This document shows positions 38,637 to 40,331 of a stretch of 64,000 nucleotides of DNA, in pieces. The stretch covers positions 2,441,001-2,505,000 of the forward strand of contig NZ_CP036281.1 of the NCBI RefSeq assembly GCF_007750395.1, in the 5' to 3' direction. The DNA comes from Polystyrenella longa (GTDB taxonomy: Bacteria > Planctomycetota > Planctomycetia > Planctomycetales > Planctomycetaceae). Position numbers and translations under genes: made by a program. Numbering within the stretch: position 1 is the first letter of the stretch; every line of letters starts with the position of its first letter. A model generated the notes under the pieces. The model had not been told where the DNA came from. It made no database searches and worked only from the letters and a program-made list of their open reading frames with translations.

Positions 38637-39791
38637 ATGCAGCAAGTCCTGAATATCAGAAATTCGGATGACCCTCGAGATATTATCCATCTCGCGGTGC
38701 AGGCACTCGTCGATGGCGAACTGGTCGTTTTCCCCTCCGAAACCGGTTATTTGATCACCGGCTATAGTCTGCAGAAAATCGCTGCTGAGCGGCTCAAGGC
38801 TGTTTTGAACGCACATGCATGCGATCTGGAAACGCGTGGAAGTTGCTTTCTCACTTTAAAAAGTGGGACAGAACTGGCCGATTACACCGGGGTTCTGGAA
38901 GGATTTGGCCGAAAACTGAGCCGCCGCTGCTGGCCGGGTCCAGTCAGTCTTTCCCTTCCGACCCAGATCGACACAGGAACAGTCCCAACCTTGCTTTCTT
39001 CCTTTTCAAAACCGGTCAGAGAGTTGCTTGTAAATGAAAATCGCGTACAGTATCGCGTACCGGCTCACGACTCGATTCAGGATGCAATGAAATTGCTGCC
39101 TGCACCTCTGGTCACTATTCGAGAATGTTGGGGTAAATCCGCTCTCTTGACGACCGCCGCAGACGTGCAAGAATTCCTGAAAGATCAATCTGCGCTCGTG
39201 ATTGATGATGGACCGAGTCGATACGGACAAGCTGCTACGGTCGTGCATGTGGACGAATCCGAGTGGGAGTTAAGAGAGAAAGGAGTTGTCTCAGCGGCAA
39301 CTTTAAGGAGATTGGCCAGCGATATGTTTTTGTTCGTGTGTACAGGCAATACCTGTCGCAGTCCGATGGCAGAGGTTTTATTCCGCAAATATCTCGCAGA
39401 TAAGCTACAATGTCAGGATGATGAGCTTCTCGAACGAGGATTCATTGTCGAATCGGCAGGACTGTCTGCTCTGGCAGGAATGAGAGCTGCCGTGGAAGCG
39501 GTGGACGTTGTTGCTGAACAGGGTGTTGATCTTTCTGTTCATCAGAGTCAGCCTCTGACGAACCGTCTTATCGATCAGGCAGATTATATTTTTGTGATGA
39601 CTCGAGGACATCTCGATTCGTTGTTATCAGTTCGTCCTGACATTCACGACCGGGTCCGACTTCTTTCCTCTGATGGAAGCGACGTCTCCGATCCTATTGG
39701 AGCAGGACGAGCTCAATACGAAGAATGCAAAACTCAGATCGAACAATATGTTCGTGACATAGTTGATAATATTCAATTAACCGATCAATAG
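38637..39791 (+). CDS. YrdC-like domain fused to LMW phosphatase (YwlE-type)
   Basis: 384 residues. Residues ~10-215 have the YrdC/TsaC fold order (LVDGELVVFPSETGYLI, LSRRCWPGPVSLSLP, IDDGPSRYGQAATVV), but the usual KxR and SANxSG nucleotide/tRNA motifs are eroded. Residues ~229-375 are a low-molecular-weight phosphatase: C235TGNTCR241 P-loop and general acid D352 in SDPIGAG. Thr at the position before Cys240 is the feature that gives Bacillus YwlE preference for phosphoarginine. rpiB follows 10 bp later. Most likely a protein arginine- or tyrosine-phosphatase with a modified YrdC partner domain. Confidence 0.85.
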   Translation: MQQVLNIRNSDDPRDIIHLAVQALVDGELVVFPSETGYLITGYSLQKIAAERLKAVLNAHACDLETRGSCFLTLKSGTELADYTGVLEGFGRKLSRRCWPGPVSLSLPTQIDTGTVPTLLSSFSKPVRELLVNENRVQYRVPAHDSIQDAMKLLPAPLVTIRECWGKSALLTTAADVQEFLKDQSALVIDDGPSRYGQAATVVHVDESEWELREKGVVSAATLRRLASDMFLFVCTGNTCRSPMAEVLFRKYLADKLQCQDDELLERGFIVESAGLSALAGMRAAVEAVDVVAEQGVDLSVHQSQPLTNRLIDQADYIFVMTRGHLDSLLSVRPDIHDRVRLLSSDGSDVSDPIGAGRAQYEECKTQIEQYVRDIVDNIQLTDQ

Positions 39792-39801
39792 GTCTATCGT
39801 T

Positions 39802-40260
39802 ATGAAAATCGCTGTGGCCAGCGACCATCGCGGCTATGATGTCAAAGGTAAAATTCTCGATCTGCTGAAATCACTAGGCCATGAAGGCCAGGATTTTGGA
39901 CCAGATGGTGAAGAGAGCGTCGACTATCCCGATTACGCTTCTAAAGTCGCACGTGCTGTTTCCACCAAAGAGGTTGATAGAGGTATCCTGATTTGCGGAA
40001 CCGGTATGGGGATGTGTATCGTCGCCAACAAATTTACCGATGTCCGTGCCGCACCATGCCACGATGATTTAACCGCCGAGATGAGCCGCTTGCATAACGA
40101 TGCCAACGTGCTTTGTCTCTCCGCCGACTTACTGGGGGATCGCCTGGTACATCGGATGGTCGAAATCTGGCTCGAAACCAAGTTCGAGGGAGGACGACAT
40201 GCCCGCCGACTCGAAAAGATCAGAGAGTTCGAAAACGAAAACCACTGCTGTGATAGCTGA
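39802..40260 (+). CDS. rpiB: Ribose-5-phosphate isomerase B
   Basis: 152 residues. Typical start MKIAVASDHRGYDVKGKILD, active-site Cys65 in GILICGTGMGMCIVANKF, and a conserved RLHNDANVLCLSADLLGD block. It interconverts ribose- and ribulose-5-phosphate in the pentose pathway, cytoplasmic. It starts 10 bp after the fusion gene and shares its terminator, so the two form one transcript. Confidence 0.97.
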   Translation: MKIAVASDHRGYDVKGKILDLLKSLGHEGQDFGPDGEESVDYPDYASKVARAVSTKEVDRGILICGTGMGMCIVANKFTDVRAAPCHDDLTAEMSRLHNDANVLCLSADLLGDRLVHRMVEIWLETKFEGGRHARRLEKIREFENENHCCDS

Positions 40261-40292
40261 ATATCTCACTCAGCAGCGGTAACCAAAACATA

Positions 40293-40331
40293 AAACCGAA
40301 GTAGAAGAGTTTCTTCTACTTCGGTTTTTTT
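40293..40331. terminator. Strong bidirectional terminator
   Basis: A 16-bp perfect stem (40293-40308 with 40312-40327), a 3-nt loop and T-runs or A-runs on both sides. It terminates rpiB on the plus strand and can serve the convergent sulfatase on the minus strand. Confidence 0.92.

Follow-up and report, generated by a model that had tools for sequence, protein, structure and literature searches.

The window analysed here is a stretch of 64,000 nucleotides of the planctomycete Polystyrenella longa (contig NZ_CP036281.1, positions 2,441,001 to 2,505,000), in which one gene encodes a YrdC/Sua5-like domain fused to a low-molecular-weight protein tyrosine phosphatase (LMW-PTP) and is followed by rpiB. 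We consider the fused protein to be probably an arginine phosphatase of the YwlE type that carries a pseudo-YrdC domain and derives from an ancestral fusion with two active halves. The arginine-phosphate role is best supported by a reciprocal pattern: the phosphatase half tends to be degraded in genomes that lack the protein arginine kinase McsB, just as the YrdC half has decayed in those with a second Sua5.

The fused protein and its partners in Polystyrenella longa

Both Pfam domains share one frame of 384 amino acids (aa), with a weak match to Sua5_yciO_yrdC (residues 23-212, 46.2 bits; cut-off 25.1) and a clear match to LMWPc (residues 231-374, 103.6 bits; cut-off 23.2). The second gene is situated 10 bp behind this open reading frame (ORF) on the same (+) strand, matches LacAB_rpiB in Pfam with 188.7 bits, and passes the rpiB equivalog TIGR01120 (171.3 bits; cut-off 138.65). 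Thus, the fused YrdC and YwlE-type ORF with an adjacent rpiB, which an earlier note on this DNA had proposed from the letters of the sequence, is confirmed. Two separate genes misread as one are ruled out by the single open frame in 104 loci.

By sequence, the best solved matches of the C-terminal half are YwlE of Geobacillus and Bacillus, and YwlE ranks near the top in the fold comparison as well. In the AlphaFold model of the fused protein (62 aligned sequences; mean predicted local distance difference test score (pLDDT) 94.8, predicted template modelling score 0.91), residues 229-384 superpose on YwlE 4kk4 with a Z of 24.7 and a root-mean-square deviation (rmsd) of 1.6 over 146 aligned residues, and the structural alignment gives 33-34% identity to YwlE. 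The half combines the LMW-PTP fold with a C(X)4CR(S/T) P-loop. This P-loop, CTGNTCRS, does not vary among the 34 sequences of the own family, all with Thr at the selectivity position, and the aspartate of the Asp-Pro (DP) general acid pair, Asp352, is invariant across 62 aligned sequences. According to PMC8001253, Thr at this position steers YwlE and S. aureus PtpB to phosphoarginine, and Ile to phosphotyrosine. Judged from its residues, the window protein may likewise act on phosphoarginine. It has the LMW-PTP fold, the P-loop Thr, the DP acid, and McsB in the same organism in common with YwlE (B. subtilis, Geobacillus) and PtpB, but differs from them in that the phosphatase is the C-terminal half of a fusion of modest identity and is known here from sequence and model. 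An arsenate reductase role was rejected, since it fits the second LMWPc gene (L005) better. This gene encodes the only other LMWPc protein in the genome, an ArsC-like protein with 136.8 bits to arsC_pI258 (cut-off 174.3), and is preceded by a frame with the look of an ArsR-type regulator. The fused protein is the sole arginine-phosphatase candidate found in this genome.

The genome searched is a single contig of 6.13 Mb with a completeness of 99.95%. The earlier note had made its proposal of arginine phosphorylation depend on a kinase in this genome, to be sought together with McsA/ClpC; McsB, an McsA-like gene, and a ClpC-type protein were found. McsB is represented by one PF00217 match, which scores 470.9 bits with the protein arginine kinase model NF002194 (cut-off 385) and 316 bits with B. 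subtilis McsB (6tv6), and which stays under the cut-off of the Bacillus-type model NF053707 (405.7 vs 500). Directly upstream of mcsB, on the same strand, is the McsA-like gene, whose product has a UVR motif as well as CxxC pairs. The ClpC-type unfoldase is recognised by a UVR motif and by a double Clp N domain akin to those of ClpC with solved structures; none of the ClpC models of NCBIfam was over its cut-off for this protein. The second Clp_N protein is ClpB by sequence and lies beside a dnaK-like frame, named in the same way. These members correspond to those of the McsA-McsB-ClpC quality control, with the difference that ClpC is remote from mcsAB (274 kb vs 5,896 kb on G000:C1).

PMC9654439 gives KxR...SxN as the catalytic signature of TsaC/Sua5. 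In the alignment, this tetrad is gone from the window protein, whose score with TIGR00057, the model of threonylcarbamoyl-AMP (TC-AMP) synthase, is well under the cut-off (55.9 vs 123.2), and in which no Pfam match to Sua5_C was obtained. The fold is retained: residues 1-228 superpose on P. abyssi Sua5 (6f89_B) with a Z of 25.2 and an rmsd of 2.3 over 209 aligned residues. The two lowest internal blocks of the model are the active-site segments, i.e., residues 61-70 (pLDDT 62) and 161-170 (pLDDT 79), and the model of an intact relative is confident at both. A complete Sua5 is encoded elsewhere in the genome (G000:C1, 4.155 Mb), with Sua5_C and 201.2 bits to TIGR00057, which is over the cut-off. 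Compared to TsaC/Sua5 (YwlC), the YrdC fold is thus shared across the whole half, and most planctomycete relatives examined keep KxR...SxN, but the tetrad was lost in the window protein and its family. The YrdC half seems to be a pseudo-enzyme that apparently lost its active site, and its equation with YwlC in the earlier note is not supported.

In the own family, 38 of 41 genomes match the fused protein over both halves; the remainder consists of a long frame that matches the C-terminal half (G357), a 214-aa frame (G339), and a weak piece only (G393). None of the 34 own-family sequences (window protein and 33 loci) has KxR or SxN at the aligned places. L013 and L014 carry KLR a few residues ahead of the place of KxR, and the PTET.Y and WPGP stretches are mostly kept. 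One of the 34, L181, showed one stop in its locus match. Comparison to a same-genus relative gave nonsynonymous (dN) and synonymous (dS) divergences of 0.202 and 1.348 for the YrdC half and of 0.106 and 1.418 for the phosphatase half, and ratios of about 0.15, which indicates purifying selection, and about 0.07, respectively, both rough because dS is close to saturation. For the closer pair L013/L014, dN/dS is about 0.1 for both halves. The mean top-residue frequency in the family is 0.46 for the dead YrdC half vs 0.63 for the phosphatase half.

Distribution and decay of the two halves

Of 159 Planctomycetota genomes searched with the fused protein, 134 gave a match; both domains share a frame of 300 aa or more in 104 of them, and in three more the fused gene is cut by contig ends. 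The resulting 107 of 159 genomes, from 58 family-level groups, are a lower bound, since long frames with a weak phosphatase match in six genomes were not counted. These frames, of about 380-412 aa, are divergent and occur in G022, G047, G104, and G120 of family f27 as well as in G038 and G112; those of G022 and G047 match YrdC as well, and all six are probably strongly diverged fusions. A recent fusion limited to this genome is ruled out by the occurrence in at least 107 of 159 genomes. Of 101 loci with sufficient flank, 66 have rpiB as the following gene in the same orientation. Among the 104 fusions, the tetrad columns are kept in 84 (K), 77 (R), 90 (S), and 87 (N) cases, so that a phylum-wide pseudo-YrdC was rejected, and the P-loop selectivity position is occupied by T (76), S (13), L (6), I (5), R (3), or M (1). 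McsB was found in 371 of 392 Planctomycetota genomes, absences of McsB being soft here and below, since PF00217 and PF02861 were negative in a B. subtilis control genome in which PF01300 was positive. B. subtilis has mcsB and clpC, and we suspect that the mcsB-clpC stretch is missing from the control sequence.

We counted as standalone Sua5 any PF01300 match that reached 100 bits and lay in a frame of less than 600 aa other than the fused gene. Frames of at least 740 aa were taken as HypF-like by size, and the other leftover PF01300 matches in fused genomes do not exceed 35 bits. The search covered 120 of the 159 genomes, i.e., the 107 with the fused gene and 13 without it. Short standalone Sua5 proteins are carried by the genomes of family f46 (G049, G070, G088, G106, and G122). 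In 87 of the 107 fused genomes, nine of them at least 97% complete and two (G127, G152) single-contig, the search gave no standalone Sua5, and there the tetrad is preserved for the most part. The tRNA modification N6-threonylcarbamoyladenosine (t6A) is called universal in PMC9654439, and in these genomes TC-AMP is therefore most likely made by the fused YrdC.

SxN was lost in 17 of 19 fusions accompanied by a standalone Sua5 vs 1 of 85 without one (Fisher p 2e-16, kinship ignored; L056 with SAN counted as SxN-keeping, fused genes of G065, G073, and G134 excluded because they are cut by contig ends). For genomes at least 90% complete, the loss amounts to 16 of 17 with a second Sua5 vs 1 of 55 without. 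The decayed fusions belong to nine family codes, of which eight have a second Sua5, and on a tree of the phosphatase half the decay state needs 9 changes, at least 5 of which are forced by the starred branches. Families f31, f34, and f48 each contain both states: the fusion is decayed in genomes that have a second Sua5 and intact in genomes without one.

Outside Planctomycetota, occurrence was taken from the matches listed in a scan of named genomes and is therefore a lower bound. The short fusion with rpiB next to it was observed in at least six loci of Candidatus Omnitrophota, i.e., L190, L198 (Ca. Aceula), L200, L201, L202, and L206. In case of the Aerophobetes locus L248, the fusion is located at a contig edge, with no rpiB match among those listed. 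McsB is present in five of the six Omnitrophota fusion genomes and in the Aerophobetes genome.

In the Clostridia and Bacilli, the genes are usually separate and follow the order sua5, ptp, and in many loci then rpiB. The order sua5-ptp-rpiB is seen in L216, L231, L250, L261, and L262, and likewise in L227 with a gap after sua5; in several Clostridia sua5 is situated immediately beside ptp. These clusters of the ywlC, ywlE, ywlF type share the gene order and the neighbouring rpiB with the planctomycete locus, but their genes are separate, two Bacilli loci have a gap between sua5 and ptp, and some Clostridia (L218, L221, L241, and L256) have longer frames of 513-536 aa that join a full Sua5 to the phosphatase. 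The earlier note had regarded the P. longa locus as a mirror of ywlC-ywlE-ywlF. The order is indeed that of the Clostridia, and the likeness is limited by the gaps of about 0.85 kb (L230) and 1.6 kb (L249) in the two Bacilli loci.

All 19 Clostridia and Bacilli loci of this kind with a phosphatase match, neighbouring or fused, were compared. A degraded P-loop was observed in eight of them (L210, L211, L215, L218, L221, L223, L241, and L244), most of which belong to Lachnospiraceae-type genomes; seven lost the Cys or the Arg, and L244 keeps both and departs from the signature. McsB is present in 10 of 11 genomes with a C(X)4CRS P-loop vs 1 of 8 with a degraded one (p 0.001, kinship ignored), the exceptions being L216 and L210. 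That P-loop integrity tracks McsB is our best evidence that the phosphatase serves an arginine-phosphate system. To judge from their P-loops, the degraded proteins of the Clostridia are apparently pseudo-phosphatases kept beside Sua5. Six further loci have Sua5 and no phosphatase match, five of them without McsB and one (L208) with it.

Proposed role of the fusion

We infer a bifunctional ancestor, whose YrdC half would have made TC-AMP for tRNA t6A and whose C-terminal half would have dephosphorylated protein arginine. In the family of P. longa, a second, complete Sua5 would have taken over the t6A step, and the YrdC half would then have lost KxR...SxN, with its fold held by purifying selection. 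The window protein would now remove phosphate from arginines marked by McsB and would thereby keep the marked proteins away from ClpC. For the dead YrdC half, the most likely present function is the docking, regulation, or stabilisation of the phosphatase.

Several observations weigh against this explanation. Co-occurrence within the phylum has little power because McsB is nearly universal there, and the fusion is present in two of eight genomes without McsB vs 105 of 151 with it (p 0.015; some genomes are incomplete). The five f46 genomes examined have McsB and no fused protein, with LMWPc in two of the five, and this phosphatase thus does not accompany McsB in every organism of the phylum. 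At the selectivity position, 15 of the 104 fusions carry L, I, R, or M, and none of their genomes is among those without McsB. The P-loop Thr is suggestive but no strict marker of McsB partnership. The earlier note had taken it as a sign of phosphoarginine preference, which is in agreement with Thr239 and with the whole own family and fails as a rule for these 15 fusions, which differ though McsB is present. The gene upstream of mcsB remains under the cut-off of the McsA model NF053706 (117.2 vs 210 bits) and is hence called McsA-like only. Regarding the decay of the YrdC half, supported branches leave 4 to 5 independent pairs, of which about three agree and none disagrees, and a sign test cannot reach significance. 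In G149 (about 320 contigs, completeness 90%), the YrdC half is decayed although the search gave no second Sua5, G031 has a second Sua5 and yet an intact tetrad, and G115 keeps SVN but lost the Lys. Furthermore, a strict KxR occurs in only 66 of 83 SxN-keeping fusions without a second Sua5; in the others K and R are spaced differently. Among the genomes in which no standalone Sua5 was found, G121 and G152 carry the strict KxR and SxN, and G127, without any other PF01300 match, has its K and R one residue further apart.

It is possible, though to our mind somewhat doubtful, that the halves were joined merely by fusion of co-transcribed neighbours and never cooperated, the dead YrdC being kept for folding or solubility of the phosphatase. 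Such a history would suit the separate, adjacent sua5-ptp-rpiB genes of the Clostridia, the long frames in four loci there, and the decay of each half alone, of YrdC in planctomycetes and of the phosphatase in Clostridia mostly without McsB. It is less easily reconciled with the spread of the fusion over 58 family-level groups, with purifying selection on the dead YrdC half and its conserved residues in 34 sequences, and with family f14 (see below), where the phosphatase occurs without YrdC and thus can probably fold alone.

An action of the phosphatase half on phosphotyrosine or another phosphate ester, with arginine phosphorylation as a bystander, appears not very likely. Tyrosine-specific LMW-PTPs (Wzb and others) are within about one Z unit of YwlE in the fold comparison, the best partial matches of this half in NCBIfam are Wzb-type models, far under cut-off, and the L, I, R, or M of the 15 relatives would fit such a substrate. 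Thr in the window protein and throughout its family argues for phosphoarginine instead, as does the P-loop that tracks McsB in Clostridia and Bacilli; moreover, apart from the ArsC-like protein no other LMW-PTP was found in this genome, which has McsB.

By analogy to B. subtilis, the YrdC half, active or dead, might bring the phosphatase to TsaD/TsaBDE and protect the t6A enzyme from McsB marking and ClpCP, which we regard as quite unlikely. B. subtilis TsaD is described as arginine-phosphorylated at Arg282, with a stability that depends on McsB/YwlE, in PMC7546277 and PMC8670212. TsaD targeting would account for the persistent association of sua5 with ywlE-like genes across distant phyla, as neighbours or fused in Planctomycetota, Omnitrophota, and Clostridia. 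The much lower conservation of the dead YrdC half compared to the phosphatase argues against it. The more specific idea that the planctomycete fusion joins the t6A step to arginine dephosphorylation, the dead YrdC being kept purely as a TsaD/TsaBDE-targeting or ligand-sensing domain, is improbable. Continued synthesis of TC-AMP or a similar carbamoyl-adenylate by the YrdC half via a rearranged active site, for which the kept fold, the open frame, purifying selection, and the largely retained PTET.Y and WPGP could be quoted, is highly improbable in view of the lack of KxR and SxN at the aligned places in 34 family members, the low pLDDT of the active-site segments, unlike in the intact relative, and the complete Sua5 over the TIGR00057 cut-off in the same genome.

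Arginine phosphorylation as a degradation mark has been studied mainly in Gram-positive bacteria. Among Planctomycetota, the kinase was found in 371 of 392 genomes and the fused protein, as a candidate phosphatase, in at least 107 of 159. The fusion suggests that a coupling of the arginine mark to t6A modification of tRNA may exist far beyond Bacillus. The two halves provide a natural experiment: either one decays where another gene does its work or where it has no partner, so that the roles of both can be tested. The decayed fusions also supply a set of pseudo-YrdC domains for study. In the open-licence literature (titles and abstract starts), no description of a YrdC/Sua5-phosphatase fusion or of a link between t6A and an arginine phosphatase by fusion was found, nor any treatment of arginine phosphorylation or McsB in planctomycetes. 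The parts all belong to known families, and database annotation of such fusions probably exists already; nothing in that literature was found to describe the short fusion, its spread through the phylum, or the way in which its halves decay reciprocally.

Features of the locus and variant relatives

Table. Predicted features of the fused gene and its surroundings (positions within the window)
Feature	Position	Strand	Basis
Fused pseudo-YrdC / LMW-PTP (YwlE-like) protein, 384 aa, ATG start	38637..39791	+	ORF list, Pfam, NCBIfam, solved-structure matches
YrdC-fold half, residues 1-228	38637..39320	+	Pfam and fold comparison
Place of the lost KxR motif, residues 57-67, low-confidence model loop	38805..38837	+	Alignment, AlphaFold model
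Place of the lost SxN motif, residues 162-164, here R-E-C	39120..39128	+	Alignment, AlphaFold model
LMW-PTP / YwlE-like half, residues 229-384	39321..39791	+	Pfam, structure matches
P-loop CTGNTCRS, residues 235-242, Thr239 at the selectivity position	39339..39362	+	Sequence, alignment
Asp352-Pro353, general-acid DP pair, aligns with DP of YwlE	39690..39695	+	Alignment
rpiB, ribose-5-phosphate isomerase B, 152 aa	39802..40260	+	ORF list, Pfam, NCBIfam
Terminator-like hairpin after rpiB, 17 pairs, loop 3, T tail	40292..40328	+	Consensus scan

Due to the T-tailed hairpin after rpiB, the fused gene and rpiB look like a two-gene unit. The hairpin reads as a terminator on the - strand too and originates from a consensus scan that gave 7 sites vs a mean of 2.5 in shuffled sequence.

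Relatives in families f31, f62, and f14 deviate in the architecture or the P-loop of the phosphatase. In family f31, Arg is situated at the selectivity position (C..NRCRS) in the fusions L068, L073, and L081, and nowhere else among the 104. The second P-loop Cys has been linked to redox control in LMW-PTPs; it is replaced by Asp (C.GNTDRS) in 4 of the 104 fusions, L063, L078, L079, and L090, all of family f62. In case of family f14 (L120:2012-3103; L119 and L156 by sequence), a phosphatase with the CTGNTCRS P-loop and without YrdC is fused to a C-terminal DUF4202 domain, which in L120 is matched with 195.4 bits.

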